64,000 bases of DNA from Bathymodiolus japonicus methanotrophic gill symbiont (GTDB lineage Bacteria > Pseudomonadota > Gammaproteobacteria > Methylococcales > Methylomonadaceae), in assembly GCF_019721995.1 (NCBI RefSeq), contig NZ_BLYC01000018.1, positions 1 through 64,000 of the forward strand. The letters are read 5' to 3'. Below, in pieces: positions 4,928 to 61,883 of the stretch; position 1 is the stretch's first letter; every line of letters begins with the position of its first letter. The notes below the pieces were generated by a model, which did not search any database, had not been told where the DNA came from, and worked only from the letters and a program-made list of their open reading frames with translations. The position numbers were made by a program, and so were the translations under genes.

Positions 4928-5187
4928 CAGGCGCGCCATGCTACCTCACGAAATTCCGGGACTCCTGTCGCCGTAATTCGTTCACCTACGCAGCGAATAG
5001 GAGATGCTCCAGCCGCCCTGCGTCCGCCACAGACTGAGCACAAAGCAGCTCAGTCATGGCTACCACAAATGGCTCTACGGCTATTCGGGATAAAATTTTA
5101 GCCTCCCTCGCGCGCTATCGCGCACTTCGGATTGGCAAATTTCCCTGCGCCTTCTGGAGACTATCAGCCCTTCCGGGGCTGACAGCG
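4928..5187 (+). repeat. Type A element, copy A1
   Basis: 260 bp from CAGGCGCGCC to GACAGCG. Left flank is the IS30 gene, right flank is unrelated sequence, so this copy marks a rearrangement junction. Right flank TTGG fits the G-at-+4 rule. Confidence 0.9.
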
Positions 5188-5502
5188 TTGGTGGTTCGCT
5201 TACGCTCATCTCCAAATTTCACACCTGGCAGAATCTTTGTCCTGCCTTTTCCCGTGACACTTATCACCCTGACTCTTAATCAACGCAACTCACGGTGGCT
5301 TGATAACGACTACTGGAAGTCGTCACCGAAGGGCCATCCTTCATCTTTCTTACAGTTACGAGCAAAAATAAAAAAAATTTTCTCTCGTGGCAGACCGTAG
5401 CCAGCTATGCGCTAGTTTCAGCACCTTGCTCTCGACAAAAATCAGCTCACTATATTTTCCGCATCCGTGATCGCGTGAAGTATATCAAGAAATATACAAA
5501 AA
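5188..5502. other. Non-coding structured sequence
   Basis: No gene is recognised. Small hairpins occur (for example CGACTACTGGAAGTCGTC near 5309) and the right part is a degenerate copy of the repeat at 28921. It may be a further, unnamed structured repeat. Confidence 0.4.
5395..5487 (+). repeat. Degenerate partial copy of repeat H
   Basis: GGCTATGCGC-like core, GCTCTCGACAAAAAT and the end CATCCGTGATCGCGTGAAGTA match the right part of the repeat at 28921-29080 with several mismatches. Confidence 0.55.
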
Positions 5503-5935
5503 ATAGGTGCCATCAAACGGGGCATGGAACGGCAACGATTGGCCGAAGAAAAAAAGCAAGCCGCTTAACCCATCTTCGTCACTTTCATCTTTCTAAGCCA
5601 TTGATTCATCGGTTTAAGCGATTTTTTGTCGAAAAATTCTCTTTAAAATCAATGGTGTTTTTTTTGAAAGTTTTGTAGTGCCATTTATATTATTTTTGTC
5701 GATAAATTCATTGACTTTTGTCAAAAAAATCATCATTATTTGAGTGTAATCTACATGCGACAAAAATACTCTAAAAAATCCAACGTTTTATACAAAAACA
5801 CAAAATCTGTAGTGCCAACTGGCTACTTTTTAAAATTTCAACCAATTGATTTATAACAACTACATCATCAATAGTGACGAAGATGGGTTAAGCTTAAAGA
5901 AAGTGGTCTTACGGAAGGATTGGTGTGTCTAAAAA
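5503..5935 (+). pseudogene. C-terminal fragment resembling Rpn/PDDEXK-type transposase, split by MITE F1
   Basis: Removing MITE F1 and one TA joins an open frame reading about KRGMERQRLAEEKKQAAKL followed by KESGLTEGLVCLK. The charged, Q/E-rich helix followed by a K-L-x-x-x-G-L motif resembles the tail of Rpn/PDDEXK_2 family proteins. This is a weak resemblance and the rest of the gene is absent. The fragment is cut at 5936 by element B1, beyond which lies an unrelated Fic gene on the other strand. Confidence 0.3.
5568..5888 (+). repeat. MITE family F, copy F1
   Basis: 321 bp with inverted termini ACCCATCTTCGTCAC / GTGACGAAGATGGGT, flanked by TA on both sides (5566-5567, 5889-5890). Removing it with one TA restores an open frame. 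Confidence 0.9.
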
Positions 5936-6215
5936 CAGGCGCGCCATGCTACCTCACGAAATTCTGGGACTCCTGTAGCCATAATTCGTTCACCTACGCA
6001 GCGGATGGGAGATGCCCTGAACGCCCTGCGTCCGCAACGACTACGCACAAAAGCAGCTTCGTCATTACTACCTCACTCGCTGGACGGCTATTCGGAATGC
6101 AATTCTTGCTCCTCTCGCGTGCTGCTAGCACACGTCGAATCAGCGAATTGCCCTGTCGCCTATCAGGGGCTAAAAATCACCACTTAGCTAAGCTCCGTTT
6201 CCATGATTTTCAGCG
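5936..6215 (+). repeat. Type B element, copy B1
   Basis: 280 bp from CAGGCGCGCC to TTTTCAGCG. Left flank is the Rpn-like fragment, right flank the Fic gene: a junction between unrelated genes. Right flank GATG fits the +4 G rule. Confidence 0.9.
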
Positions 6216-6563
6216 GATGAGCAGAGCATTACTTATCATTCTAGCAGTGCGCTTGTTACCATCTTCAAAAGATTGAATATATTAGTTGAGCACGACAGCC
6301 AATAAAGCCTTTTCAAAACCATCAACTCTGGCATTGATCAAAGAGCACATTCGCTCCAGGCTTTCTTTGATTTGGTGTTCATTATCGAGTGGTTTATACG
6401 CGGCGCCAGAAATACCCACGGATCGGGAACGAATATTTCTGCTTACATCCAAATCTTTAATCAGTAGTGAGTGAATTTCTTCCAGAACCCTTAAATTAAG
6501 ATCTTTTGCTATATCTTTATTATCTAACAGGTAATTTAAGGCATCCTTGTGATTTAGAAGCAT
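6216..6563 (-). pseudogene. Fic-family protein fragment
   Basis: Reading down from 6563 gives an N-terminal helical part (MLLNHKDALNYLLDNKDIAK), then the segment that precedes the Fic core. After an in-frame TAA at about 6277 the frame continues YIQSFEDGNKRTARMISNALL. That is the Fic signature (normally HxFx(D/E)GNxxR) with the first His apparently replaced. Fic proteins transfer AMP or related groups to target proteins. The gene is inactivated by the stop and by the B1 element that ends it at 6216. Confidence 0.75.
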
Positions 6564-6576
6564 TGTAGCTTCTTCT

Positions 6577-6605
6577 GTAACTACTCAGCGAAGCTGAGTA
6601 GTTAC
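6577..6605. repeat. Solo palindrome matching the end of the IS66-type element at 55872
   Basis: GTAACTACTCAGC-GAA-GCTGAGTAGTTAC is a perfect palindrome. The same sequence forms the left end of the IS66-type element at 55872, so this may be a remnant of another copy. It lies just upstream of the Fic remnant and next to MITE E3. Confidence 0.6.
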
Positions 6606-6609
6606 AAAA

Positions 6610-6812
6610 CTGAAGTTTCCCAATAATTATTTATGGTAAAATTGAAACTATGCTACAACTATATGAAAAAACAGTCTTTTCATTCGTTTCAAATGCTATT
6701 GCCTAAGGGGAATTAAGTAGGGGTTTGCTATAAACATGGCAAAACCACCTAAAATAAACCTCGATACACCAGCATTGTGTATTTCAGCTACTCAATAATT
6801 GGGAAACTTCAG
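6610..6812 (-). repeat. MITE family E, copy E3
   Basis: 203 bp, reverse orientation, 8-bp direct repeat TTACAAAA (6602-6609 and 6813-6820). It lies about 20 bases beyond the lpxD stop. Confidence 0.92.
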
Positions 6813-6832
6813 TTACAAAATAAATAACCTTT

Positions 6833-7882
6833 TTATTCCTTACCCAGACGAGATAGCTTTTGTTCCACATCAGTTAAGCGTTTCAGGATATTTTTCACCT
6901 GCCCCAATAGAGCAGGTAATTTAGGAATACTCGCCATTTCGCGCATGACTTGTTTAATAGGTCGATTAGGTGCACCCCAGACAATTTGATTAGGCTTTAC
7001 ATCTTTGGAAATCCCGGTTCTTGCGGCAGCAGTAGAGCCATCGCCCATAGTGATATGATCGGCAATTCCCACCTGCCCGGCTAAGGTTACACGCTTGCCT
7101 AATGTAACGCTGCCCGACAGACCGACATGGGAGACGATAATACAATGTTCGCCGATATCGTTGTTATGCGCAATCTGTACCAGATTATCAATTTTAGTGC
7201 CTTTACCGATCCGGGTCATACCAAAAGTCGCTCTATCGATGCAGGTGTTGCAGCCAATTTCGACATTATCTTCAATAATTACCACACCTAATTGCGGTAC
7301 TCTTTTTTGTTGCTGGCCATCCCAGAAGTAACCAAAGCCTTCACCGCCAATCACTGTACCTGCATGAATAGTCACATTATGTCCCAGCGTAACCTTAGAT
7401 AGAATGCTTACATTCGGGCCGATCTTGCAATGCTCGCCTATAACCACATCATGTGCAATATGCGTATTGGAGTCGATACTGGTATTCGCACCGATCGTTA
7501 CATTTTCCTGGATGCAAACATGGGCAGCGATAGCAACAGACCTTGCAATATTCACTTGCTTTTCAGCAATTACGGCGCTGGGATGAATGCCTGAAAACGC
7601 CACGCCTGCATCATCAAACATCATCATAATGCCGATAAAGGTCTCTTTCGGCTTATCTACTTTTAAGATGTTTTTACCAGCCAGCTCAGGAAAACCTTTC
7701 GGTACGATGATAATTGAGGCATTGCTTTGCTTGGCAATGGCTAGATACTTGTCATTCTCAGCATAGGCAATTTCACCCGACACGGCCAATTCCAGTGAGT
7801 TGACGGCTGTAACGACAACATTGGTATCGCCAGCCATTTCGCCGCCCACATGTTGCTGAATATCTGCTAAACGCATTTGCAT
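6833..7882 (-). CDS. lpxD: UDP-3-O-(3-hydroxyacyl)glucosamine N-acyltransferase LpxD
   Basis: The 349-residue protein has an N-terminal uridine-binding domain followed by a long left-handed beta-helix of hexapeptide repeats (for example VIGEHCKIGPNVSIL, TIHAGTVIGGEGFGY). The catalytic His lies in the AHDVVIGEHC / QIAHNNDIGEHC region. It adds the second 3-hydroxyacyl chain in lipid A synthesis in the cytoplasm. Full family length. It stands alone here, away from the usual bamA-skp-lpxD-fabZ-lpxA cluster, which is somewhat unusual. C-terminal residues form a short coiled helix (KNILKRLTDVEQKLSRL). Confidence 0.95.
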   Translation of the reverse strand: MQMRLADIQQHVGGEMAGDTNVVVTAVNSLELAVSGEIAYAENDKYLAIAKQSNASIIIVPKGFPELAGKNILKVDKPKETFIGIMMMFDDAGVAFSGIHPSAVIAEKQVNIARSVAIAAHVCIQENVTIGANTSIDSNTHIAHDVVIGEHCKIGPNVSILSKVTLGHNVTIHAGTVIGGEGFGYFWDGQQQKRVPQLGVVIIEDNVEIGCNTCIDRATFGMTRIGKGTKIDNLVQIAHNNDIGEHCIIVSHVGLSGSVTLGKRVTLAGQVGIADHITMGDGSTAAARTGISKDVKPNQIVWGAPNRPIKQVMREMASIPKLPALLGQVKNILKRLTDVEQKLSRLGKE

Positions 7883-8051
7883 TTTATTTTCCTGGTATGT
7901 AGAGATAACTCAAAGTATGAAAGAGCATTAAGCCTGATTTTCCAAGTTTAAAGTTTTTAGCAATAAACAACCTGCAACAGCAATTCACTTATGCTTTACA
8001 ACATATTTTATGCTGTCATATAGTTGCTTTTTATAAGGCAGGGTGGGTAGA
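7883..8051. other. Intergenic gap between lpxD and the DUF2934 remnant
   Basis: AT-rich, no gene seen. It must contain the divergent promoters for lpxD (minus strand) and the small gene at 8052. Confidence 0.4.
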
Positions 8052-8285
8052 ATGAATTGGCTCGTTAGAGTGCCTCCTGCAAATATTCAAAATACGAACC
8101 CTGGTATCATGAGTAATAATCAAGTACAAAAACATAAATGGATTTCTGACGCTGCTTATTTCAACTCTTTAAAGCACGAATTTAACCCCGATCAGGACAT
8201 GCAAGACTAGCTCGCCGCAGAGCAACAATATTTACAGCTGATGCACAACCGCGTTAAATCAGGGTTAGTCAGAATAAATTCTTAA
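8052..8285 (+). pseudogene. DUF2934-like small protein with an internal stop
   Basis: The frame from ATG 8052 reads through WISDAAYFNSLKHEFNPDQDMQD, then a TAG at 8208, then LAAEQQYLQLMHNRVKSGLV to TAA at 8283. DUF2934 proteins carry an (I)xxxAYxxxxxxG...(D)WLxAE pattern. The TAG sits exactly where the conserved Trp is expected, so a TGG to TAG change is the simplest explanation. Function of the family is unknown. An alternative is a start at 8109. Confidence 0.6.
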
Positions 8286-8297
8286 GACCAAGAAAAG

Positions 8298-8329
8298 ACT
8301 GCTTCGCTCACAACTGAGAAGCAGTTTTT
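8298..8329. terminator. Bidirectional terminator between the DUF2934 remnant and copA
   Basis: Perfect 8-bp stem ACTGCTTC / GAAGCAGT with a 12-base loop, followed by a T-run on the plus strand; the minus strand also has a T-rich tail. It serves converging genes. Confidence 0.7.
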
Positions 8330-8338
8330 CTGCCAGCC

Positions 8339-10663
8339 TTATGCCAAGCTCTTTTTAAAAGCCTCAACCAGCTCTAAAACCTGCTGTTTGTAATCGTCTT
8401 TACCGGTATCATCCAGATTCATCCAGCGCAAGCGGTTAGCATTGGCAACTACGGTTACTGAAGACATTGCCATCGCTGCACCAGCTATCATTGGGCTTAA
8501 TAAAATACCAAATACCGGGTACAACAAGCCTGCGGCAATGGGTATGCTAAGTGAATTATAAATAAAGGCACCAAACAGGTTCTGCTGAATATTAGCCACC
8601 GTCGCTTTAGACAACAACATAGCTTCAGGTACTTTTTGTAATGAGCCTTGCAGGATCACAATATCTGCACTTTCGATCGCCACATCAGTACCGGTACCAA
8701 TCGCTATACCCACATCAGCCTGAGCGAGCGCGGGTGCATCGTTGATACCATCACCAACCATACCTACTACCTGCCCAGCTTGCTGTAACTCTTTGACAAT
8801 CGCAGCCTTATCTTCCGGTAAAACCTGTGCCCGTACTTCGCTAATACCCGCCTGTTTGGCGATTGCATCTGCAGTCACCGCATTATCGCCAGTCACCATT
8901 AAAACGCGTACACCCTGCTTTTGCAGTTTAACTATAGCTTCGGCGGAGTCCACTTTAATTGGATCAGCCACCGCAATAATACCGGCAATTTTCTTATCGA
9001 CCGCTAAAAACATCGCTGTTTGGCCTTGCTTTGATAGCGCCAGCATTTTATCTGTAAATGCTTCATAGCTAACGCCCTGCTCTTGCATCAGCGCTTCATT
9101 ACCAAATAACACAGCTTGACCCTTAATTATTGCCGAGACGCCATGCCCTGCAACTGCAGTAAATTTCTTCGCACGCGTTAATTTTAAGGACTTTTTATCC
9201 GCAGCATCCATAATCGCTGATGCCAAAGGATGTTCCGAGCCTTTTTCTATGCTTGCCGCTAATTGCAAGACCTTATCTGCCGAAAAATCAGCCAGTGCTT
9301 CAATCGTGGATACTGTCGGCTTGCCTGCGGTGACTGTGCCGGTTTTATCCAGTACCAGGGTGGTGATTTTGCCTGCAACTTGCAAGCCATCACCATTGCG
9401 AATCAGGATTCCAGATTGCGCCGAACTTCCTACTGCAACCATCACCGAAATAGGCGTTGCCAGTCCTAACGCACAAGGACAGGCGATCACTAATACAGTC
9501 ATAGCAGTTACAAAGGCATAGCCTAATGATGGCTCTGGCCCCCAAATATTCCAAATCATAAAAGTCAGGATAGAAATACACACCACCACCGGGACGAAAA
9601 TACTGGCAATCTTATCGGCTAGTTTTGCTAATTCTGGCTTACTACCCTGTGCCTGACGTACGCTTTTAATAATTTGCGCCAAAGCGGTATCTCGCCCAAT
9701 CCGGGTCGCCTGGTACAGAAAACTACCCTGCTGATTCATGGTACCTGCGGCAACAGTCGCACCAACCACTTTTTCTACGGGTAAAGGTTCACCGGTCAGC
9801 ATGGACTCATCGACGGTAGAATGCCCTTCTATCAGCTCACCATCCACCGCAATTTTTTCGCCCGGACGAACACGCAAGGTTTCACCTAAGCCCACTTCTT
9901 CGATGGGAATATCCAGTTCCTGCCCATCACGAACCACTCTCGCGGTACGTGGCTGCAAGCCAATCAAAGCACGAATCGCGCTGGATGTCTTGCCCCGGGC
10001 TTTGGTTTCCAGAGCTTGCCCAAAATTAATAAAGGCCAGAATAATAATTGATGCTTCAAAATACGCGTGCGCGGAAAGTGAAGGTAAGTATTCAGAATAA
10101 TCAATCACCACACAGGAATATAACCAGGCAGCACCTGTTCCTAAAGCGATCAGAGTGTCCATATTCGCCTGCCTGACCAGGATTGACTTCCACGCGCCGA
10201 CAAGAAATTGCCCACCGGAATAAATCAAGATAGCCAGAGTAATCAATGCGACTTCGGGCCAGAACCAATTGCCCGTTTCGGAGCCTATATCAGGGACACC
10301 TCCAAAATGGCCAACGACCATGAGTGGTATACCAAATATGGCCGCCACTGTTGCCTTGCGGACTAATTGCCGATAACGTGCCATTTCCTGTTCTTCCTGC
10401 TCGGCAGGGTCTTCAAAGCCCTCCATAACAGCACCATCATAGCCTGAGTCTTGCAACGATTTTTTCAGTAAATCAGCATCGACATCACCTTTAACAATGG
10501 CCGAGTGATCAGCAAAGTTCACTGTAACCGACGTAACACCGGGCACCGAATTTAAGGCTGTTTCTACAGCTGCTACGCATCCAGCACAACTCATGCCTAA
10601 GACTGACAAGCGAATTTCTGGATCGCTAGCATCCGCAGTTATAGTAGTATTATCTTCGCTCAT
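8339..10663 (-). CDS. copA: Copper-translocating P1B-type ATPase CopA
   Basis: The 774-residue protein has an N-terminal heavy-metal-associated domain with GMSCAGC. The membrane part includes the ion-binding CPC motif in [11 protein letters not shown], followed by the actuator TGE (LTGEPLP lies earlier), the phosphorylation motif DKTGT, the SEHPL nucleotide-site motif and [16 protein letters not shown]. These are the marks of a Cu(I)-exporting ATPase of the inner membrane. Only one HMA domain is present. The separate chaperone copZ lies 167 bases upstream on the same strand, so the two probably act together in copper export; copper homeostasis is expected to matter in a methanotroph. Confidence 0.95.
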
Positions 10664-10690
10664 ACTAATTCTCTCATTTCGTTACAAACT

Positions 10691-10790
10691 AGTGCAGCGC
10701 CGTGTTGGTTTAATGGATAAGGTGTTTCATAGACCACTAATTTAAAAATAAATTATAGTTATCTATGAATGAGTTCAACACGGTGCTGTA
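10691..10790. repeat. Imperfect inverted repeat between copZ and copA
   Basis: AGTGCAGCGCCGTGTTG at 10691-10707 and CAACACGGTGCTGTACT near 10773-10789 pair with two mismatches around a 65-base AT-rich spacer. It could be a tiny MITE or a regulatory structure in the copZ-copA message. It is not a recognisable CueR operator. Confidence 0.45.
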
Positions 10791-10830
10791 CTACAGCAAT
10801 CATGACGCCAGGATTTATTACCAAAATAGT

Positions 10831-11040
10831 TTAATCAACTACGGTAAACCCTGCATCTTCAATAATTTCGATAACATCATCCTCTTCAATCACTGCTTCA
10901 TCAAACTCTACTTCTACCCAATCTTCACTGTGATTGCCATCGACAGAAATAACACCATCTTTAGCCATTAATGCCTGTTTAATTGTGTTTTCACAACCAC
11001 CACATTTCATTCCAGTTACTTTTAGTTTTACTGTTGTCAT
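10831..11040 (-). CDS. copZ: CopZ-like heavy-metal-associated (HMA) copper chaperone
   Basis: A 69-residue single HMA domain with the metal-binding motif GMKCGGC near residues 10-16. The C-terminal half is unusually acidic (SEDWVEVEFDEAVIEEDDVIEIIEDAG), which would give a low pI. It would carry Cu(I) in the cytoplasm and hand it to CopA, whose gene follows. The fold order beta-alpha-beta-beta-alpha-beta fits the length. The metal is inferred from the neighbour. Confidence 0.85.
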   Translation of the reverse strand: MTTVKLKVTGMKCGGCENTIKQALMAKDGVISVDGNHSEDWVEVEFDEAVIEEDDVIEIIEDAGFTVVD

Positions 11041-11168
11041 TGCTAGTTCCCAAGTTGATTATAAGTTAACTGTATATCATACTCGACTGATAAACATTAA
11101 TCATGATATAAATTACCAGGAAATTCACCTCGGGTGAATAAATTATTCTCTTATTTAGATCTCAGCCC

Positions 11169-11615: not shown

Positions 11616-11619
11616 ACCC

Positions 11620-12280: not shown

Positions 12281-12291
12281 CTACCTAGGCC

Positions 12292-27247: not shown

Positions 27248-28419
27248 ATGAAAATTGCAATTATCGGTATGGGGCGTGTTGGCGAAACTCTCGCATACAG
27301 CATCGTAATGAGAGGCCTCTGTGATCATCTAATACTATGCAACCGCACAGCGTCAACAGCAACCGGAGATGCAATGGATTTGCAGCATAGTCTGGCTTTT
27401 TGTCAGCACTCCATGAAAATAAGCTCTGGCGAAATTGCCCAGGCTAAAGATGCAGATATCGTAGTGATTACAGCATCAATCTCCATGTCAAAGACAATGT
27501 CTTCGCGCACAGAACTGGGACTGGTCAATGTTGCGCTATTTCGAGAATTAGTTCCACTTATTGCCAGTAATAACCCAGATGCAGTGCTGGTCATTGTATC
27601 TAACCCTGTTGATGCCTTGACTTACCTGACGACCAAGCTTTCAGGCTTTGCTGCATCCCAGGTTATTGGTGTGAGTACATTGATAGACTCAGCCAGATTC
27701 AGGGTCATGCTCTCACAAGTCGAGAAAATCCATCCTGATGATCTACGCGCTTATGTCGTCGGAGAGCATGGACCTAACCAATTCCCGATTTTTAGTCAGG
27801 CGATTGTTGGCTGTGAGTCGATCAATGATAACCCATTACACCGCGAGATATTTGATCAAGTAACTGACGCAGGATTCGAAGTCTATCATAACAAGGGCTA
27901 TACCAATTTTGCCATTGCCAATGCCTGCACTGAAGTGCTTAGAACCATTGTTTCTGATGCCCACCGCACCATGCCACTTTGCACCTACTTTGATGAGTGG
28001 CTAGGCATCACTAATAACTGTTTTAGCATTCCGGTGGTAGTCGGCCGCAGAGGTATCATACGCTATTTATACCCGGCACTAAATAAACGCGAGCAACAGG
28101 ATTTAAATAGTCAGGCGCGCCATGCTACCTCACGAAATTCCGGGACTCCTGTCGCCGTAATTCGTTCACCTACGCAGCGAATAGGAGATGCTCCAGCCGC
28201 CCTGCGTCCGCCACAGACTGAGCACAAAGCAGCTCAGTCATGGCTACCACAAATGGCTCTACGGCTATTCGGGATAAAATTTTAGCCTCCCTCGCGCGCT
28301 ATCGCGCACTTCGGATTGGCAAATTTCCCTGCGCCTTCTGGAGACTATCAGCCCGTCCGGGGCTGACAGCGAATGCGAAAAAAATTAAAGCAACAATCAG
28401 TACGCTTTTAGACTTATGA
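27248..28419 (+). CDS. Malate/lactate dehydrogenase family protein with tail replaced by element A2
   Basis: The NAD-binding GMGRVGETLA motif is at the N-terminus. The substrate Arg lies in DSARFRVMLS and the catalytic His in GEHGPNQFPIFS, so the catalytic core is complete. Element A2 (28112-28371) interrupts codon 289. Removing it restores a natural C-terminus (LNSNAKKIKATISTLLDL, stop at 28417), which ends in the usual final helix. As it stands, translation runs into the element and ends at 28285, adding about 57 foreign residues (starting [15 protein letters not shown]) in place of 17 native ones. Activity may survive or not. The choice between malate and lactate is not clear: the loop has MSKTMSSRTEL rather than a plain malate-type R-R pair. 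GGGGGAG is a strong ribosome-binding site. Confidence 0.82.
28112..28371 (+). repeat. Type A element, copy A2
   Basis: 260 bp. Empty site AATAGT|AATGCG restores the dehydrogenase frame, so no target duplication. Right flank AATG fits the +4 G rule. Confidence 0.93.
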
Positions 28420-28502: not shown

Positions 28503-28782
28503 CAGGCGCGCCATGCTACCTCACGAAATTCCGGGACTCCTGTCGCCATAATTCGTTCACCTACGCAGCGGATGGGAGATGCCCTGAACGCCCTGCGTCC
28601 GCAACGACTACGCACAAAAGCCGCTTCGTCATTACTACCTCACTGGCTGGACGGCTATTCAGAATGCAATTCTTGCTCCTCTCGCGTGCTGCTAGCACAC
28701 GTCGAATCAGCGAATTACCCTGTCGCCTATCAGGGACTAGAAATCACCACTTCGCTAAGCTCCGTTTCCATGATTTTCAGCG
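28503..28782 (+). repeat. Type B element, copy B2
   Basis: 280 bp in non-coding sequence, between AACAATTGC and GTAGCCTGCC. Right flank GTAG fits the +4 G rule. Confidence 0.9.
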
Positions 28783-29949: not shown

Positions 29950-30229
29950 CAGGCGCGCCATGCTACCTCACGAAATTCCGGGACTCCTGTCACCATAATT
30001 CGTTCACCTACGCAGCGGATGGGAGATGCCCTGAACGCCCTGCGTCCGCAACGACTACGCACAAAAGCCGCTTCGTCATTACTACCTCACTGGCTGGACG
30101 GCTATTCGGAATGCAATTCTTGCTCCTCTCGCGTGCTGCTAGCACACGTCGAATCAGCGAATTGCCCTGTCGCCTATCAGGGACTAAAAATCACCACTTC
30201 GCTAAGCTCCGTTTCCATGATTTTCAGCG
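29950..30229 (+). repeat. Type B element, copy B3
   Basis: 280 bp inside the radical SAM gene. Joining the flanks (AATACCA|TCCGAA) keeps the frame open through SGNNSDGIIH. Right flank TCCG fits the +4 G rule. Confidence 0.9.
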
Positions 30230-30579: not shown

Positions 30580-30839
30580 CAGGCGCGCCATGCTACCTCA
30601 CGAAATTCCGGGACTCCTGTCGCCGTAATTCGTTCACCTACGCAGCGAATAGGAGATGCTCCAGCCGCCCTGCGTCCGCCACAGACTGAGCACAAAGCAG
30701 CTCAGTCATGGCTACCACAAATGGCTCTACGGCTATTCGGGATAAAATTTTAGCCTCCCTCGCGCGCTATCGCGCACTTCGGATTGGCAAATTTCCCTGC
30801 GCCTTCTGGAGACTATCAGCCCTTCCGGGGCTGACAGCG
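30580..30839 (+). repeat. Type A element, copy A3
   Basis: 260 bp. Joining the flanks (CCAGTG|ACGTAA) restores the minus-strand reading MAELRHWFHKAN with no duplication. Right flank ACGT is the single exception to the +4 G rule. Confidence 0.93.
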
Positions 30840-31674: not shown

Positions 31675-31934
31675 CAGGCGCGCCATGCTACCTCACGAAA
31701 TTCCGGGACTCCTGTCGCCGTAATTCGTTCACCTACGCAGCGAATAGGAGATGCTCCAGCCGCCCTGCGTCCGCCACAGACTGAGCACAAAGCAGCTCAG
31801 TCATGGCTACCACAAATGGCTCTACGGCTATTCGGGATAAAATTTTAGCCTCCCTCGCGCGCTATCGCGCACTTCGGATTGGCAAATTTCCCTGCGCCTT
31901 CTGGAGACTATCAGCCCGTCCGGGGCTGACAGCG
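31675..31934 (+). repeat. Type A element, copy A4
   Basis: 260 bp joining an IS66 fragment (left) to the 5'-truncated IS4-like element (right): a recombination junction. Right flank TTAG fits the +4 G rule. Confidence 0.92.
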
Positions 31935-38983: not shown

Positions 38984-39243
38984 CAGGCGCGCCATGCTAC
39001 CTCACGAAATTCCGGGACTCCTGTCGCCGTAATTCGTTCACCTACGCAGCGAATAGGAGATGCTCCAGCCGCCCTGCGTCCGCCACAGACTGAGCACAAA
39101 GCAGCTCAGTCATGGCTACCACAAATGGCTCTACGGCTATTCGGGATAAAATTTTAGCCTCCCTCGCGCGCTATCGCGCACTTCGGATTGGCAAATTTCC
39201 CTGCGCCTTCTGGAGACTATCAGCCCGTCCGGGGCTGACAGCG
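38984..39243 (+). repeat. Type A element, copy A5
   Basis: 260 bp in the linker between SLT and SPOR parts, flanks GCAAGAA|AACGAC. Right flank AACG fits the +4 G rule. Confidence 0.92.
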
Positions 39244-41754: not shown

Positions 41755-42034
41755 CAGGCGCGCCATGCTACCTCACGAAATTCCGGGACTCCTGTCGCCA
41801 TAATTCGTTCACCTACGCAGCGGATGGGAGATGCCCTGAACGCCCTGCGTCCGCAACGACTACGCACAAAAGCCGCTTCGTCATTACTACCTCACTGGCT
41901 GGACGGCTATTCGGAATGCAATTCTTGCTCCTCTCGCGTGCTGCTAGCACACGTCGAATCAGCGAATTGCCCTGTCGCCTATCCGGGACTAAAAATAACC
42001 ACTTCGCTAAGCTCCGGTTCCATGATTTTCAGCG
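41755..42034 (+). repeat. Type B element, copy B4
   Basis: 280 bp. The empty site (TTCT|GTAG, plus strand) restores the DUF924 C-terminus exactly, with no duplication. Fits the +4 G rule. Confidence 0.95.
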
Positions 42035-44305: not shown

Positions 44306-44581
44306 CAGGCGCGCCATGCTACCTCACGAAATTCCGGGACTCCTGTCGCCATAATTCGTTCACCTACGCAGCGGATGGGAGATGCCCTGAACGCCCTGCG
44401 TCCGCAACGACTACGCACAAAAGCCGCTTCGTCATTACTACCTCACTGGCTGGACGGCTATTCGGAATGCAATTCTTGCTCCTCTCGCGTGCTGCTAGCA
44501 CACGTCGAATCAGTGAATTGCCCTGTCGCCTTTCAGGGACTAAAAATCACCACTTCGCTAAGCTCCGTTTCCATGATTTTC

Positions 44582-49948: not shown

Positions 49949-50564
49949 ACCCATCTTCGTCACTTTCATCTTTCTAAGCCATTGATTCATCGGTTTAAGC
50001 GATTTTTTTTGGGGAGTCGCTATTTTTGCGAAAGCTTGTTTTGGGCATCCCAGCCCAAGCAAGCAGCAAAAACTTAACGCGACCACTTATGCCTCCGGCG
50101 GCCCCGATTCGTCCTCGTCACCTCGTCCCGACCCAACAAGGGGTCGGAACATAGGCTCCAAATGACTTGACGCCGTGTCGGATGGCCTTTTATTTTGTCT
50201 CCACCTTCGCTAACGCTCAGACTCCGACAAAATAACGGCCCTACGGCTATCGCGGACTAAAAATCATCACTTCGCTTAGGCTCCGTTTCCCTGATTTTCA
50301 GCGGTCGAAAAATTCTCTTTAAAATCAATGGTGTTTTTTTTGAAAGTTTTGTAGTGCCATTTATATTATTTTTGTCGATAAATTCATTGACTTTTGTCAA
50401 AAAAATCATCATTATTTGAGTGTAATTTACATGCGACAAAAATACTCTAAAAAATCCAACGTTTTATACAAAAACACAAAATCTGTAGTGCCAACTGGCT
50501 ACTTTTTAAAATTTCAACCAATTGATTTATAACAACTACATCATCAATAGTAACGAAGATGGGT
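49949..50564 (+). repeat. MITE family F, copy F2, split by D1
   Basis: 321 bp of F sequence around D1, flanked by TA (49947-49948, 50565-50566), inside the IS1111-type transposase. Confidence 0.93.
50009..50303 (+). repeat. Type D element, copy D1
   Basis: 295 bp from TTGGGGAGTCGC to TTTTCAGCG. The empty site GATTTTTT|GTCGAAA is seen uninterrupted in F1, so no duplication. Fits the +4 G rule. Confidence 0.95.
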
Positions 50565-51250: not shown

Positions 51251-51301
51251 CGCTGAAAATCATGGAAACTTCGCTAAGCTCCGTTTCCATGATTTTCAGC
51301 G
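51251..51301. repeat. 51-bp hairpin made of two inverted copies of the B-type right end
   Basis: CGCTGAAAATCATGGAAAC and GTTTCCATGATTTTCAGCG pair perfectly around a 13-base loop. It abuts the truncated ISb copy; the next bases TTTG also fit the +4 G rule. It lies just upstream of the cytochrome c4 start. Confidence 0.85.
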
Positions 51302-52851
51302 TTTGATTTTAATCACTTATAACAGCAAATAGATACTCTGTAGGCACCGTAAAAAAACAACAAATAATTTCAAATAAAGCTTGCAATTGCCGAAAAAAGT
51401 TTTCTAAAAATTTCCGTTTTAATCACCTCATAAACGGATATCACCCATGCTTAAAGACCTACCACTCTCTGAACATATTCACCAACACTGCAATGAAAGT
51501 ATGGAACGTGCCCTGTTAGCAGAGCGTCATCCTTTGTGGGCTCGTTCATGCCCAGAGTTGAAGGATATCGACTTTATTCGCCTTGGGTTATTACGCTGTA
51601 TCAGTGTAGTCGATAGTGGTCGCCATTTCCTCCAAACCAATGAACAGATTTATGGCCAGCTGCTTCCCCACTCAACGTATTTTAAATCACTGAAGTCGCA
51701 TAGACGAACAAGTATGCTTGAGGCATTTGAACAGCAGAGCTATCATCTTCACTCTGAACACTGCTATCGCAAGGCATTGATTATCTTAAAGTATTCCCGG
51801 AACTTGACGAATACACCATAGAAGCAGCGGATGGGCATTTTATTGATCATGCCTGCCATACTGAAAAAAACAGCAAGGGGAAAGTTTATGCGGCCGGGGG
51901 GATTTACGCGTTGAATCTCAGAAGTGGGTTGCTCAGATTTCTTTGTCTGGTGACAAACGGAACTCAGAGACATCAAGAAATACCTGTGTTACGAGATCAT
52001 ATTGAAAAGCAAAACAAGGGAAATAACAGCTCTCAGAAACATCTCTATGTCTACGATAAAGCCGTCACCGACTTTGTCTGGTGGGATCGGCAGAAATGAC
52101 ATGCTAATTACATGATTTCAATGCTAAAAGAAAATTCAATTGCGACTCTGGTTGAGTCTATCCCTTTTGACTCCCGCCATGAGATCAATACAGGGGTTGA
52201 AGCATACAGTGTGTACGAAAACAAGGGCATCAAATTTAACGTGGTGGATTACCGTGATCCAGAAACCGGAAAACTTCACCGGTTTGTGACAACCTTGCCA
52301 ATGACTATTAACCCTGGAACCATTGCCATGCTATATTTCAAACGATGGACGATTGAAAAGACATTCAATAACACTAAAAGTAATTTCAAGGAAACTTCGG
52401 GGAGTCGCTATTTTTGCGAAAGCTTGTTTTGGGCATCCCAGCCCAAGCAAGCAGCAAAAACTTAACGCGACCACTTATGCCTCCGGCGGCCCCGATTCGT
52501 CCTCGTCACCTCGTCCCGACCCAACAAGGGGTCGGAACATAGGCTCCAAATGACTTGACGCCGTGTCGGATGGCCTTTTATTTTGTCTCCACCTTCGCTA
52601 ACGCTCAGACTCCGACAAAATAACGGCCCTACGGCTATCGCGGACTAAAAATCATCACTTCGCTTAGGCTCCGTTTCCCTGATTTTCAGCGAAAGCTTGG
52701 TCTTCCAATACCCGCTCACTTGAAAATCAAATGCGCCTGACTGCAATGAGCTATAATTTAATGCGCGTGTTTGAAGAGATTTCAAAAACACAACAGCCAG
52801 AATTGATTCATCCATCGGATAAAAAATATAGCGAGGCTCTGGAGATAAGGC
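51302..52851 (+). mobile_element. IS4-like element ISb, defective copy truncated at both ends and split by D2
   Basis: Lacks about 88 bases of the left end and everything after GGAGATAAGGC. Shares the one-base deletion and TGA of the copy at 31935, so the two descend from one defective ancestor. The transposase frame begins at 51447. Confidence 0.92.
52397..52691 (+). repeat. Type D element, copy D2
   Basis: 295 bp. The empty site GGAAACT|AAAGCTTGG is seen uninterrupted at 32811 and in the intact copy at 44582. No duplication. Fits the +4 G rule. Confidence 0.96.
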
Positions 52852-53111
52852 CAGGCGCGCCATGCTACCTCACGAAATTCCGGGACTCCTGTCGCCGTAA
52901 TTCGTTCACCTACGCAGCGAATAGGAGATGCTCCAGCCGCCCTGCGTCCGCCACAGACTGAGCACAAAGCAGCTCAGTCATGGCTACCACAAATGGCTCT
53001 ACGGCTATTCGGGATAAAATTTTAGCCTCCCTCGCGCGCTATCGCGCACTTCGGATTGGCAAATTTCCCTGCGCCTTCTGGAGACTATCAGCCCGTCCGG
53101 GGCTGACAGCG
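52852..53111 (+). repeat. Type A element, copy A6
   Basis: 260 bp joining truncated ISb (left) to the region after apeB (right). Right flank GGTG fits the +4 G rule. Confidence 0.92.
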
Positions 53112-54967: not shown

Positions 54968-55049
54968 CTACAGACTGGTTTTAATTGATACCCTTTTTAC
55001 ATTATTTTAGCCCAAATAATCACTGTGTTGCGAAAAGAAAAACAGAGCA

Positions 55050-55329
55050 CAGGCGCGCCATGCTACCTCACGAAATTCCGGGACTCCTATCGCCATAATT
55101 CGTTCACCTACGCAGCGGATGGGAGATGCCCTGAACGCCCTGCGTCCGCAACGACTACGCACAAAAGCCGCTTCGTCATTACTACCTCACTGGCTGGACG
55201 GCTATTCGGAATGCAATTCTTGCTCCTCTCGCGTGCTGCTAGCACACGTCGAATCAGCGAATTGCCCTGTCGCCTATCAGGGACTAAAAATCACCACTTC
55301 GCTAAGCTCCGTTTCCATGATTTTCAGCG
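55050..55329 (+). repeat. Type B element, copy B6
   Basis: 280 bp, intergenic, flanks AGAGCA|ATTGAC. Fits the +4 G rule. Confidence 0.92.
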
Positions 55330-55879
55330 ATTGACTGACTGATTTAGATTTGAGCATTTCAACGTAAGCGTCAATTAAAGTACATATTCTAAACCAATAT
55401 AAAAAATGGCAGACTAATACCTCCAATTAACTCAGGAGGAATTTATGAGTCCATCTCAAAATAAAGCGGCTATGCAAAATCATATACCGCAATGGCAAGC
55501 CAGTCGTTTAACTCAGGTCGGGTATTGCAAAGCCCATGATATCAAGCCGCATATCTTCAGTTATTACAAAAAGCAATTCAGTTCGCTCGCTCCACCAGTG
55601 TTACAAGCCAAGCAATTGGTTCCGGTAACACTGGTTGCAGAGGACATGTTGAACGGATCACAGGCGCGCCATGCTACCTCACAACATTCTGGGACTCCTG
55701 TCACCAACATTCATTCGCCTACGCAGCGAATGGGAGATGCCCTGGTCGCCCTGCGTCCGTCTCAAATGGCTGGACGGCTATTCGGAATGCAATTCTTGCC
55801 TCCCTCGCGCGCTACTAGCGCACTTCGGATCAGCGAATTGCCCTGTCGCCTACCAGGGACTAAAAATCATCGTAACTAC

Positions 55880-56174
55880 TCGGGGAGTCGCTATTTTTGC
55901 GAAAGCTTGTTTTGGGCATCCCAGCCCAAGCAAGCAGCAAAAACTTAACGCGACCACTTATGCCTCCGGCGGCCCCGATTCGTCCTCGTCACCTCGTCCC
56001 GACCCAACAAGGGGTCGGAACATAGGCTCCAAATGACTTGACGCCGTGTCGGATGGCCTTTTATTTTGTCTCCACCTTCGCTAACGCTCAGACTCCGACA
56101 AAACAACGGCCCTACGGCTATCGCGGACTAAAAATCATCACTTCGCTTAGGCTCCGTTTCCCTGATTTTCAGCG
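55880..56174 (+). repeat. Type D element, copy D3
   Basis: 295 bp inserted in the terminal palindrome of IS66b. The empty sequence GTAACTAC|TCAGCGAAGC is seen uninterrupted at 6577. No duplication. Fits the +4 G rule. Confidence 0.95.
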
Positions 56175-56201
56175 TCAGCGAAGCTGAGTAGTTCAATGAA
56201 A

Positions 56202-57871
56202 TTATAAAGCAAATTCAGGTAACTTTCCCTCAAAGACCAAGGTCATTGCCTGAGTTGCACTTAGACCTTGTTTACGGCACGTTGATAAATACCCTCTGAC
56301 ATGACAAAATATCTCTGCACCCTTGGTACTACGAAAGCAGCCGGATATTTTCTGTTGAACCTTGGTCATCCGAATCGAATTTTCTGCGGCATTATTGGTA
56401 AATGGCACCCAGGTATTTGTCATGAAGCGCAAGACATCCTCTTCATAATTAATCAGCCTTTCCAGTAAGTTTCTAGCTTTACTGCGTTTTATTCGCTCCC
56501 GTTTTACTTCTTTAGGCTTATCGGGTGGTGGGCATTCGATCTCCGCTTTGCCAAGTAATTCTCTGTATTGTACCTTCCATTTTTCTGCTTCTTTATGTAG
56601 TAGCATGCCACCTGCTTCATTGACGGCATCATTCATTTTTTCAAGTAGTCGTTTCATTTCAAGCGCCCACTCCTGTTTATCCTGCTCCCAGGCGCGCGTT
56701 AATTCCCTCAAATGATGTGCATTACAAAGCGAATGAGTACAATCATATTTATAGTAGGGCTTCCAATGATCATGACATAAAATCCCATGAAAATGGGGTA
56801 AAATACCAATGTCATTCATTGCCTCTGTGCCACGTTTGGCATGTGGAAAGAAGTGTGTCCACTGAACACAGGCGCGCCATGCTACCTCACGAAATTCCGG
56901 GACTCCTGTCGCCGTAATTCGTTCACCTACGCAGCGAATAGGAGATGCTCCAGCCGCCCTGCGTCCGCCACAGACTGAGCACAAAGCAGCTCAGTCATGG
57001 CTACCACAAATGGCTCTACGGCTATTCGGGATAAAATTTTAGCCTCCCTCGCGCGCTATCGCGCACTTCGGATTGGCAAATTTCCCTGCGCCTTCTGGAG
57101 ACTATCAGCCCGTCCGGGGCTGACAGCGTTGGAGGCCCCATGTAGCCAATGGCGCTTACCATTAATATTAATGCCTGTTTCATCCGCATGAATGCACGCT
57201 GATTCGACTAAGTGTTCTTTACTGATAGTTTCAAACCCAGCCAACTTCTCATAGGCCAGTTCATTGAAATTATAGATAGAGCCTTCACTAATCGGCATAC
57301 CTAATTGATCAGCGAAATACTCCTGTATTCGGTTGTAGGGCAATAACTGATATTGCGAAAGATAAACCACATGGGCTTTTATCCCATTACCATATTGCGC
57401 AGCCTTAGTAACCTCATCTGGAAAAGGAGCGATAAAACACTGACCTTTTCCATTTATCAACCGTTGCGCCTGGTATTCTGTCACTACCCTTGAGATATCA
57501 ATATCGAATACCTAGCGTGTTTCAAAGCCATCTGCCGTGTATCGCCCTTTTGGCAAGGTACGGCGATCAATGGTAATGATCTCGATTTCATCCGGGTCAT
57601 CTATTTTTTGAAGTGTCGTGCCGACATGCGATTTTTGTCCGCCAGAAGGCTTATCTGATTTTTTTCGATTCCCTTTTTTACGGTTGGGATCACTTGCAGG
57701 TGGTTTACTGCTATTTTTGCTGTTCAGTGTCACTCGATTGAGTAATACCGTGACTAATAATAGAATCACTTCCAGTGCTGATTTTAGCGCAGGCGATATA
57801 TCACGCTCAGTTTCAAGTAACTGTTTGGCATGACTGATTGCGGAATCAACATCGATGAAGTCTATTTTCAA
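56202..57871 (-). pseudogene. IS66b TnpC-like transposase, broken
   Basis: Reading down from 57871: a helical N-terminus, the basic linker SSKPPASDPNRKKGNRKKSDK, then TAG at about 57510 (probably CAG before). The zinc-ribbon/DDE part follows (AAQYGNGIKAHVVYLSQYQLLPYNRIQEYF, HADETGININGKRHWLHGASN). A7 interrupts. The rest is VQWTHFFPHAKRGTEAM...LCNAHHLRELTRAWE...FTNNAAENSIRMTKVQQKISGCFRS with the final catalytic Glu. The stop and A7 inactivate it. Confidence 0.9.
56869..57128 (+). repeat. Type A element, copy A7
   Basis: 260 bp. Joining the flanks (TGAACA|TTGGAG) gives the in-frame minus-strand reading LHGASNVQWTHFF. Fits the +4 G rule. Confidence 0.94.
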
Positions 57872-58116
57872 AGGGTAACCTGTATTGCTTTAAGGACAGG
57901 CTTATTATCTCATGGGTTTTAAATCCCGAATTTTCCTTGTTTTAAGCGATTGTAAGGCGAATAAAAAAGTTCTTCGAGGTCGTAGATGTTTAAGGGGACA
58001 TTTTGTGATGACTATAGCGATAGAAGCAATAAAGCGTGGATTAATCGACTGTTGGGCAGTTTACTAAAAATCACAAAAACCAGACTAAAACCCTGTCAAG
58101 AACTTTTTTAATTATT

Positions 58117-58730
58117 CAGGCGCGCCATGCTACCTCACAACATTCTGGGACTCCTGTCACCAACATTCATTCGCCTACGCAGCGAATGGGAGATGCCCTG
58201 GTCGCCCTGCGTCCGTCTCAACTACTCAACTACGCACAAAACCCTGCTTAGTTAAGTCTACCTCAAATGGCTGGACGGCTATTCGGAATGCAATTCTTGC
58301 CTCCCTCGCGCGCTACTAGCGCACTTCGGATCAGCGAATTGCCCTGTCGCCTACCAGAGACTAAAAATCATCACTCCGCTTAGGCTCCGTTTCCCTGATT
58401 TTAACCAATCTTCGTCACTATTGATGATGTAGTTGTTATAAATCAATTGGTTGAAATTTTAAAAAGTAGCCAGTTGGCACTACAGATTTTGTGTTTTTGT
58501 ATAAAACGTTGGATTTTTTAGAGTATTTTTGTCGCATGTAAATTACACTCAAATAATGATGATTTTTTTGACAAAAGTCAATGAATTTATCGACAAAAAT
58601 AATATAAATGGCACTACAAAACTTTCAAAAAAAACACCATTGATTTTAAAGAGAATTTTTCGACAAAAAATCGCTTAAACCGATGAATCAATGACTTAGA
58701 AAGATGAAAGTGACGAAGATGGGTTAAGCG
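58117..58730 (+). repeat. Type C element, copy C2, split by MITE F3
   Basis: 291 bp of C sequence around F3; it keeps 45 bp that C1 has lost between two CTCAA repeats. Inserted near the right end of IS66b. Right flank TACG fits the +4 G rule. Confidence 0.9.
58404..58724 (-). repeat. MITE family F, copy F3
   Basis: 321 bp, TA on both sides, inserted in the TTTTAAGCG right end of C2. The uninterrupted end is visible in C1 at 58781-58789. Confidence 0.95.
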
Positions 58731-58911
58731 TACGCTGAGTAGTTACAAATCATCACTCCGCTTAGGCTCCGTTTCCCTGATTTTAAGCGGGCGTACCTGC
58801 TGATTCATCAGTTATCAAAGTGACTCATTCTAATGGCTTCAGTCTGGAAATTTGTGCCAGTACAGAACTTGCATCATTAAAGCCGCTTCTGAAACTGGTT
58901 AGGTCTATCTC

Positions 58912-59256
58912 ATGATAAACGGACTTGTTGTTAATCAAGTGTTTTTGGCGACCGGCGTTACTGATATGCGTAAATCTATCAATGGTCTGTCACTGATTGT
59001 TTCGGAACAGTTTGGCCATGATCCCTTTGCCGGAAGTATTTTTGTCTTTTGTAACCGCTCTCGCGATAAACTGAAAATACTCTATTGGGAGTGTAATGGG
59101 TTCTGACTTTATTATCGGCGCCTGGATAAGGGGAAGTTTCAGTGGCCAACCGAGTTAAACGAACATCCGTTATCATTAACCTTACGTGAATTACACTGGT
59201 TATCCTATCGGCAAGCGCAAGCTCATACCGCTATTTCTGGCTTAATAAATAATTGA
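58912..59256 (+). pseudogene. IS66 TnpB with an internal stop
   Basis: The frame starts MINGLVVNQVFLATGVTDMRKSINGLSLIV and contains FVFCNRSRDKLKILYWECNGF, the TnpB (IS66 Orf2) signature. A TGA at 59104 replaces the conserved Trp codon before LYYRRLDKGKFQWP. The frame then continues to a natural stop at 59254. A TGG to TGA change explains it. The ATG overlaps the tnpA stop. Confidence 0.9.
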
Positions 59257-59737
59257 TTTGTTGCCGTTATTTTACGTTGAAAATATCTAATAAAACAGCC
59301 AGTTAAATGATTATTTAACCCTGTTTTTCGGTATAATAAACACCATGAAATCACTTCCTGAAATACTGCCAGACGAGACGAATGTACTGCACAAAATGGT
59401 GCTGGACTATCAGCCGACAGTGGATCAATTACAGGAAAAACTGACATGGTATGAGGAGCAGTTTCGTCTGTTGCAACATGAGCGTTTTGGCACCTCCAGT
59501 GAGAAATGTCCGGGTCAAATGGAGTTGTTTAATGAAGCGGAGTCCATTCTTGATAGCTTAAAGCAGGATGATTCCGACCCTGAAGAAACCCTAAGCTATC
59601 AGCGTAAAAAGCCAGGCCGCAAGCCATTATCCAGAGATATCCCGCGCGAAGTTATCCGTTATGAATTACCTGAAGCAGAGCGTGTTTGTGCCTGCGGTCA
59701 TGCATTGCATGAGGCTGGCGAAGACAAGTCAGAGCAG

Positions 59738-60017
59738 CAGGCGCGCCATGCTACCTCACGAAATTCCGGGACTCCTGTCGCCATAATTCGTTCACCTACG
59801 CAGCGGATGGGAGATGCCCTGAACGCCCTGCGTCCGCAACGACTACGCACAAAAGCCGCTTCGTCATTACTACCTCACTGGCTGGACGGCTATTCGGAAT
59901 GCAATTCTTGCTCCTCTCGCGTGCTGCTAGCACACGTCGAATCAGCAAATTGCCCTGTCGCCTATCAGGGACTAAAAATCACCACTTCGCTAAGCTACGT
60001 TTCCATGATTTTCAGCG
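59738..60017 (+). repeat. Type B element, copy B7
   Basis: 280 bp. Joining GAGCAG|TTAGAA restores SEQLEIIPAQIK in TnpC. Fits the +4 G rule. Confidence 0.95.
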
Positions 60018-60187
60018 TTAGAAATCATTCCTGCCCAGATCAAAGTCATTGAACATATACAGATCAAGTATGGCTCCCGCGCCTGTGAAAATGGCATTAT
60101 CAGTGCACCAAAACCCGCACAGCCCATTCCTCGTAGTTTTGCCTCGGCAAGTTTATTAGCTTACATTATTGTCGCCAAGTTCATGGA

Positions 60188-60671
60188 CTGAAGTTTCCCA
60201 ATTATTGAGTAGCTGAAATACACAATGCTGGTGTATCGAGGTTTATTTTAGGTGGTTTTGCCATGTTTATAGCAAACCCCTACTTAATTCCCCTTAGGCA
60301 ATAGCATTTGAAACGAATGAAAAGACTGTTTTTTTCATATACAGGCGCGCCATGCTACCTCACGAAATTCCGGGACTCCTGTCGCCATAATTCGTTCACC
60401 TACGCAGCGGATGGGAGATGCCCTGAACGCCCTGCGTCCGCAACGACTACGCACAAAAGCCGCTTCGTCATTACTACCTCACTGGCTGGACGGCTATTCG
60501 GAATGCAATTCTTGCTCCTCTCGCGTGCTGCTAGCACACGTCGAATCAGCAAATTGCCCTGTCGCCTATCAGGGACTAAAAATCACCACTTCGCTAAGCT
60601 CCGTTTCCATGATTTTCAGCGGTTGTAGCATAGTTTCAATTTTACCATAAATAATTATTGGGAAACTTCAG
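60188..60671 (+). repeat. MITE family E, copy E7, split by B8
   Basis: 204 bp of E sequence around B8, with 8-bp direct repeat TTCATGGA (60180-60187, 60672-60679). Confidence 0.95.
60342..60621 (+). repeat. Type B element, copy B8
   Basis: 280 bp. The empty site TCATATA|GTTGTAG is seen uninterrupted in E1, E2 and E5. No duplication. Fits the +4 G rule. Confidence 0.97.
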
Positions 60672-60986
60672 TTCATGGATAGCCTGCCACTTTACCGGCA
60701 GGAAACCATTTTCAAGCGCTTAAGTGTTGACCTTTCTCGTGCCACGCTATCTAACTGGGTATTAAAGTCCGCTGAATTGCTCCAGCCCTTTTATGATCGA
60801 CTGCATGCTCTGCTGATTCTACAGAAGATCCTCCAGGCCGATGAAACAACCTTAAATGTGATTCGGGATGGTCGAGAGACGAAATCGAAATCCTATATGT
60901 GGCTCTATCAGAGTGGTGGGCATGAATCCGAGCACCCGATCGTTTTGTATGATTATCAGTCAACGCGGGCAGGAGCGCATGCTGAA

Positions 60987-61140
60987 ACTCGATGTTCAAG
61001 TTTTCAGCTATAACTGGGCTAAGAAAAGTAAATTTTTCCGGCTTTGTTTTATAAGTGATTGATTTACAATGATGTTGATGCTTTCTTTGTCAGTAAAATT
61101 ATCAATAAAATCAATCAGTTAAAAAACTTGAACATCGAGT
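60987..61140. repeat. MITE family G, copy G3
   Basis: 154 bp with a 3-bp direct repeat GAA (60984-60986, 61141-61143), inside TnpC. Confidence 0.95.
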
Positions 61141-61280
61141 GAAAGCTTCTTGCGGGCCTTTTCAGGTCACTTGCAGGTAGATGGCTATGCAGGCTATCAT
61201 GCACTGGCATCAGATGATTGTATCCTCGTGGGGTGTATGGCACATGCGCGGCGTAAATTCGATGAAGCGCTAAAAGCCCT

Positions 61281-61883
61281 CGCTGAAAATCATGGAAACG
61301 GAGCTTAGCCCATCTTCGTCACTATTGATGATGTAGTTGTTATAAATCAATTGGTTGAAATTTTAAAAAGTAGCCAGTTGGCACTACAGATTTTGTGTTT
61401 TTGTATAAAACGTTGGATTTTTTAGAGTATTTTTGTCGCATGTAAATTACACTCAAATAATGATGATTTTTTTGACAAAAGTCAATGAGTTTATCGACAA
61501 AAATAATATAAATGGCACTACAAAACTTTCAAAAAAAACACCATTGATTTTAAAGAGAATTTTTCGACAAAAAATCGCTTAAACCGATGAATCAATGGCT
61601 TAGAAAGATGAAAGTGACGAAGATGGGTTAGCGAAGTGGTGATTTTTAGTCCCTGATAGGCGACAGGGAAATTCGCTGATTCGACGTGTGCTAGCAGCAC
61701 GCGAGAGGAGCAAGAATTGCGTTCCGAATAGCCGTCCAGCCAGTGAGGTAGTAATGACGAAGCGGCTTTTGTGCGTAGTCGTTGCGGACGCAGGGCGTTC
61801 AGGGCATCTCCCATCCGCTGCGTAGGTGAACGAATTATGGCGACAGGAGCCCCGGAATTTCGTGAGGTAGCATGGCGCGCCTG
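61281..61883 (-). repeat. Type B element, copy B9, split by MITE F4
   Basis: 280 bp of B sequence in reverse orientation around F4. The only A-D copy in this direction. On its own strand the right flank is AGGG, which fits the +4 G rule. The TnpC sequence on its two sides is not contiguous, so a deletion occurred here. Confidence 0.93.
61308..61628 (-). repeat. MITE family F, copy F4
   Basis: 321 bp inserted at a TA in the GCTTAGCG motif near the right end of B9; TA on both sides. Confidence 0.95.

Follow-up and report, generated by a model that had tools for sequence, protein, structure and literature searches.

Folded 260-295-bp elements with exact insertion and a one-base target rule in a methanotrophic gill symbiont and other Gammaproteobacteria

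Introduction

Insertion sequences (IS) of the IS200/IS605 family have a guide tetranucleotide 5' to the hairpin foot, a target tetranucleotide at the left end, an equivalent tetranucleotide as the last of the right end, and make use of the lagging-strand template (PMC6006769). Repetitive extragenic palindromic (REP) sequences are 21-65 nt long and carry GTAG (or CGTC) tags (PMC6006769, PMC3733652); their guide and cleavage choice are known, with cuts at CT/CA (PMC8266576). REPs and REPINs are present in high copy, have the tag directly 5' of the hairpin and are thought to be mobilised in trans (PMC3116915). Here we describe folded elements of 260-295 bp in the first 64,000 nucleotides (the window) of contig NZ_BLYC01000018.1 from the methanotrophic gill symbiont of Bathymodiolus japonicus, and elsewhere in its 4.97-Mb draft genome (G000, in which the window is G000:C18:1-64000).

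These elements are like IS200/IS605 members in having no target-site duplication (TSD), a hairpin at each end, a tetranucleotide rule for the left target and the right terminus, and, in two genomes, lagging-strand use (PMC6006769). They differ from that family in carrying no tnpA, in a target cut down to one base (CNNN) and in a long conserved branched core; they are also spread over many families of Gammaproteobacteria, and no enzyme with their ends was found among the loci read. REPIN doublets resemble the palindromic minis reported below (PMC3116915), whereas the full elements are 260-295 bp long, have GCTG or GAAGGA tags, appear to be cut at CNNN and show, at the loci read, no regular linkage to REP-associated tyrosine transposase (RAYT) genes. 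With CGTC-tagged REPs, which are structured repeats seemingly without a dedicated transposase (PMC3733652), the elements share both features, but those REPs are short single hairpins with another tag. In the open-access literature searched (REP/RAYT, IS200, miniature inverted-repeat transposable elements (MITEs), Methyloprofundus and structured RNA), we recognised no paper describing these elements.

Results

The elements fall into types A, B, C and D. We list coordinates on the strand that ends in CAGCG or AAGCG (the listed strand); its opposite, the CGCTG strand, is the folding one. Types A, B and C start with CAGGCGCGCC, which occurs 830 times in the genome (372 + 458), compared with 0 + 0 for a reversed-pattern control. 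Insertion was analysed in a 464-kb sample made up of contig 1:1-400000 and the window. BLAST found 156 places in this sample, 125 of which are full length at both ends; the analysis retained 123 full copies together with flanks of 60 bases (45 D, 37 B, 37 A and 4 C). A covariance model found 140 copies in the same 464 kb, which scales up to about 1,500 copies in the whole genome.

An empty site, with the joined flanks intact elsewhere in the sample, was found for 44 of the 123 full copies. The best matches left a gap of zero bases in 21 cases (A and B), of two bases in 21 (all D) and of one base in two, both of which are weak matches of 80-84%. Because these sites leave exactly two bases, D carries two variable bases before GGGGAG and has a total length of 295 bp. 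The two bases belong to the element in all 21 comparable D copies and, over all 45, read TC in 24, TT in 11, GC in 6 and otherwise in 4. None of the 123 copies had identical flanks of 4-9 bases as expected of a TSD; identical flanks of two bases occurred 15 times (9.0 expected) and of three bases 4 times (2.4 expected). The initial annotation of the window had claimed exact insertion without duplication, and the larger sample bears this out. It had also named repeats introduced by assembly as a possible source of error. Two observations speak against an assembly artefact: identical copies lie at many sites in two-contig relatives as well (G008, G027), and the copies of the symbiont whose loci were read have differing flanks.

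The insertion sites follow a short rule that the initial annotation did not contain, and the same goes for the strand bias and the wide distribution described below. On the listed strand, G is the fourth base after the element in 117 of 123 full copies (binomial p ~2e-69). Read on the CGCTG strand, this is CNNN^CGCTG, with C at -4 and the element beginning with the CGCTG hairpin. The six exceptions include four C copies scored 13 bases short of their true end; with the end placed correctly, G is present in two of them, and the other two continue into another repeat. The real exceptions are therefore two, a D copy at contig 1:46042 and the A copy at 30580..30839 (+) in the window, which has ACGT as its right flank. 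The other, right end on the CGCTG strand, where empty sites fix it, is CCTG in A and B and CCNN in D, again with C at -4. In four Methylotuvimicrobium buryatense copies with different flanks it is CTTG, also with C at -4, and the exact right end is ambiguous in L013, L015 and L017-L020 from other relatives.

Minis and end pieces of 27-51 bp also occur, though rarely. Four minis that consist only of the end hairpin were read (contig 1:303494, contig 1:71279, window 51251 and L035), and all obey it on both sides; the palindromic mini in the window (51251..51301, no strand; CGCTG...CAGCG) has CNNN on its left and NNNG on its right. A short tail-only piece (...AAATCATCACTCC...AAGCG; window 58744..58789, +) has G at +4. 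In G006:C129 (L240, 2252-2296), a small RAYT gene contains a 45-nt element end piece that is flanked by 51-bp direct repeats. The piece shares one base with the repeats, and its left junction, CGTT^, fits the rule. We also observed A elements directly before the GGGGAG start of D at contig 1:24852 and 23375 (L040) and at 135463 (L045), where the D start is shortened; the GGGG of D can thus act as an NNNG target.

We aligned 16 A/B/C-type elements from the genus and its neighbours and folded both strands. RNAalifold put the consensus energy at -59.2 kcal on the CGCTG strand and at -31.6 kcal on the listed strand. The CGCTG strand has 77 consensus pairs, formed in 96.0% of cells, and 27 of these pairs show compensatory changes on both sides. 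Double-change cells numbered 103, compared with a shuffled mean of 35.2, and 0 of 500 shuffles reached this value; sliding the partners by 1-3 columns left only 1-11 such cells. On the CGCTG strand, G.T cells (150) far outnumber A.C cells (14), which indicates that the strand carrying CNNN is the one that folds. In order, this strand forms a hairpin at the left end, a branched core that a single helix closes, a hairpin at the right end and a short tail; both end hairpins are subterminal. The covarying core spans ~160 nt, apart from the ends. Type D (8 aligned) has a similar plan.

The orientation of the copies is also biased in this genome. Contig 1 has a positive GC skew in 8/8 bins, and 85 of its 105 full copies are on the minus strand (listed orientation); in the window, where GC skew is negative, all 18 full copies are on the plus strand, the split minus copy being uncounted. 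The CGCTG strand is thereby the G-rich strand for 103 of 123 copies. By the usual rule, the G-rich strand is taken as the lagging-strand template. Gene direction shows no link, as the 54 copies inside long open frames (of 123) divide into 29 in the same and 25 in the opposite direction. The CGCTG strand also lies on the G-rich strand for 19 of 22 elements in G134, a one-contig genome of another order in which these 22 elements were found in seven 12-kb stretches chosen for matches. The lagging-template bias is shown for these two genomes only.

Copies differ among themselves by a mean of 0.25% in A (n = 37), 1.5% in B (n = 31) and 1.5% in D (n = 43), and since A copies are almost identical, the spread of the elements is recent. 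Once the elements are cut out, other repeats account for ~23% of the sequence that remains in the sample. Most of this belongs to a small number of multicopy families, whose fixed ends are not those of the elements.

Relatives of the elements were sought with a core covariance model (20 sequences, 161 positions). Out of 369 genomes drawn from the class, 39 had matches at E <= 0.001, and 36 of these 39 belong to other orders than the symbiont. When 19 distant matches (18 loci) were fitted to the model, double changes appeared in 23 of 31 pairs (120 cells compared with 38.6 shuffled), in an alignment that leans to the model by its fitting. Left ends and flanks lie outside the core model. The loci L246-L323 hold 98 core matches, of which 93 from 30 genomes were read and five were skipped as already contained in another locus. 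A class-1 left end (CGCT-type hairpin) was found in 54 of the 93 (18 genomes), with C at -4 in 51 of 54. G134 supplies 22 of these 54, and the figure is 30 of 32 when it is left out. L250/L295 and L263/L300 are double readings, so that distinct places give 49 of 52, and one of the three exceptions, L301, has a left end misplaced by the script. A class-2 left end (mostly GAAGGAGC or CGAGGAGC) was found in 17 of the 93 (8 genomes), with C at -4 in 16 of 17; seven of the 17 come from G063, of the same order. The remaining 22 of 93 had no left end accepted by the scripts.

Named records with the same tail comprise at least 52 stretches, including Bathymodiolus methanotroph symbionts, Methylotuvimicrobium buryatense 5G, Methylomonas and Methylicorpusculum, and G006 holds at least seven B copies identical to the query. 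Four plasmid records have D-like copies (two from Methylomonas, one from Methylobacter and one from Methyloprofundus), and plasmid pINp10 (42,044 bp) of Methyloprofundus sp. INp10 carries an element match. Three other element queries matched 2, 0 and 0 plasmid records, and the D query had no match in phages. The 289-kb plasmid CP157006.1 of Methylomonas sp. AM2-LC has ten D-like places; at the one read (L374), CCAC precedes CGCTG. In G016, six matches span only B positions 214-280 and may be either short copies or D-like elements. We set G083 aside because its matches lie on small draft contigs and may be contamination.

We searched for the enzyme that moves the elements. The longer autonomous version expected by the initial annotation did not turn up: partial (tail-only or end-only) matches read in G000, G008, G009, G027 and others included no longer autonomous copy with the same ends and were minis, deletions at short repeats, whole D-like elements or DDE-split copies. 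At 260-295 bp, the elements themselves are too short to encode a Y1 gene. The symbiont genome has 22 matches to PF01797 (Y1), nearly all broken. Its single long intact Y1 gene is RAYT-like (222 aa, on C5); of 101 genomes, only G073, G089 and G017 have a relative of it that exceeds 60% identity. Y1 matches were listed for the symbiont, nine relatives and eight other genomes, and part of those loci was read. Ten core matches were found in 57 sources, mostly Y1 loci. In the element-rich genome G134, elements lie 60 and 157 bp from a Y1 gene (L349, L326), and in element-rich G013 and G015 a Y1 gene lies within kilobases of elements (L243, L365).

Within the window, BLAST with one query copy per type recovered seven A, nine B, two C and three full D copies plus short end pieces, in agreement with the counts, sizes, shared ends and nesting reported in the initial annotation. 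CAGGCGCGCC occurs at 18 sites, 17 on the plus and one on the minus strand. Uninterrupted copies measure 260 bp (A), 280 bp (B; two B are cut or split) and 295 bp (D). Besides the exception given above, the A copies are at 4928..5187 (260 bp; sequence pattern and BLAST), 28112..28371, 31675..31934, 38984..39243, 52852..53111 and 56869..57128, all on the plus strand. The B copies on the plus strand are at 5936..6215 (280 bp), 28503..28782, 29950..30229, 41755..42034, 55050..55329, 59738..60017 (within a transposase-like open frame) and 60342..60621, together with 44306..44581, where an IS end (CATCAGTGTTCCC) stands in place of the final bases. The ninth B copy, on the minus strand at 61281..61883, is split by another repeat (61628-61883 + 61281-61309) and is outside the 123 full copies. 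Type C is represented by a shortened copy at 55661..55871 (+), followed by a palindrome and D, and by one at 58117..58396 (+), the end of which is interrupted by another repeat. The D copies are at 50009..50303 and 52397..52691, both placed by BLAST and empty sites, and at 55880..56174 (BLAST), all on the plus strand and 295 bp long; the length includes the variable first two bases. The window also contains a cobalamin riboswitch (98.6 bits; 1333-1542) upstream of a gene reading like a TonB-type receptor, and a Group II intron D1-D4-2 match (5223-5342, -) that lies between an A and a B element.

Discussion

We interpret these repeats as probably being non-autonomous elements that move as single-stranded DNA, in the manner of IS200/IS605 ends or very large REPs, with an HUH (Y1-type) enzyme acting on them in trans. 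In the mechanism we propose, the CGCTG strand would be exposed as a single strand when it is the lagging-strand template, and the enzyme, acting in trans, would bind the left-end hairpin. It would cut behind the C-N-N-N of the target and behind the element's own terminal C-N-N-N; guide bases at the feet of the hairpins would pick both cleavage sites. Element and target would then be joined as single strands. Joining of this kind would leave no target duplication. Insertion is exact, C-N-N-N stands at the left target and at those right ends that can be fixed, one strand is folded, two genomes have the lagging bias, and the spread is recent. The enzyme class, the guide pairing and the use of single-stranded DNA instead of RNA as the moving form are what we infer from this. 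As far as the IS200/IS605 logic can be read from sequence, the elements follow it with a one-base target, save that the strand bias is not general.

Several observations weigh against this interpretation. The terminal dinucleotide of D is uncoupled from the internal haplotype and varies within one haplotype, which simple peel-and-paste does not explain. No gene with matching element ends was found among the loci read, and the Y1 loci read show no regular link with elements. The RAYT on C5 was rejected as the mover, since G006 has identical B copies yet its best relative of this protein is 46% identical over part of the length, and the IS200 common to G000, G006 and G008 (94-97% identity) was rejected because its ends are unrelated to the elements. 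G243 has core matches and zero Y1 matches. Over 25 genomes, 51 of 77 elements have the G-rich-strand placement, which falls to 32 of 55 without G134, and genome means are positive in 13 and negative in 12. Among five covariation measures, further pair types showed no excess (58 compared with 58.4 shuffled). The core appears to be conserved beyond what known IS200 or REP ends would need, and the 45-nt end piece between 51-bp repeats in G006 looks like another route. The mover may be an unrecognised HUH protein, a protein whose gene is missing from the draft, or another enzyme.

The initial annotation described a superfamily that fits no known family, and this still holds: we do not file the elements as IS200/IS605 or as REPs because they have no tnpA of their own and differ from REPs in size and tag. 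Of the three ideas it raised, IS200/IS605-like movement is now the best supported, IS91 has become less likely with no PF04986 match in the symbiont, nor in a control genome, and retro-insertion stays a rival.

Retro-insertion is the strongest rival, although we consider it unlikely. The RNA of the listed strand, ending in CAGCG, would be reverse-transcribed from a nicked target CNNN-OH, with the conserved hairpin end as the starting point, in the way of non-LTR (long terminal repeat) elements. Copying would begin at the very end that has the cut rule, palindromic minis bear the rule on both sides as in twin priming, one 45-nt end piece lies between 51-bp repeats, and the varying end dinucleotide of D resembles untemplated additions. 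Against this, most BLAST places (125 of 156) are full length at both ends, the conserved fold sits on the opposite strand, and the other element end obeys CNNN too where it can be fixed. The symbiont has five RVT_1 matches, which by sequence look like defence reverse transcriptases (RTs), a retron RT and a broken group II RT and do not look mobiliser-like. The open RT genes of the symbiont (L079, L081-L083) resemble defence RTs and a retron RT, and two are side by side on C102.

It is rather improbable that the core is a guide-like RNA comparable to the omega RNA of IscB/TnpB or to bridge RNA, with the elements as its carriers and CNNN as a target-adjacent motif (TAM). In TAM-and-guide systems a motif flanks one side and the sequence of the other side is free, and the elements show this same geometry; they also have a strongly covarying core of ~160 nt besides their ends. 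Near-identical A copies lie at unrelated sites, unlike in bridge-RNA targeting, and the symbiont genome has neither a TnpB Zn domain (the positive control matched in 6) nor an IscB RRXRR match, the latter with no control match either. Rfam gave no match inside the elements, either for the whole window at gathering thresholds or for two window stretches at E 5, and none for 15 of the 18 distant loci at E 0.5.

Rolling-circle movement by a Y2 enzyme, as in IS91/ISCR and Helitrons, is very doubtful. IS91 has a tetranucleotide at one end only (CTTG or GTTC beside ori), a hairpin there and no TSD, and the elements share the one-sided tetranucleotide target, the hairpin at that end and the absence of duplication. 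They differ in that their far-side end is exact and obeys CNNN, and PF04986, with no control genome matched, had no match in G000, G008 or G015 and four in G006. Ordinary DDE-type MITEs with a missed or lost duplication are scarcely credible even in a genome rich in multicopy repeats resembling DDE insertion sequences, as neither hallmark of such MITEs is present: the 0 of 123 copies with a 4-9-base duplication and the exact empty sites refute a TSD, and the two ends, as read, are not inverted repeats of each other.

We suggest tentatively that the elements could belong to a large ancient class of mobile folded nucleic acid elements, present in many gammaproteobacterial families and without a counterpart in Rfam, for which an as yet undescribed enzyme would need scarcely more than a single target base. 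The core would then work in movement, and the element would be a folded substrate or RNA, not a gene-less IS remnant. If so, an entire class of mobile elements has escaped notice, and because its members demand little beyond one target base, nearly any site on the lagging-strand template would be open to them. For DNA writing, an enzyme with such a one-base rule would be of interest. Copies are present in the relative M. buryatense 5G. The class would also allow mobilisation in trans, a question that REPs raise as well, to be put to the test on elements without genes.

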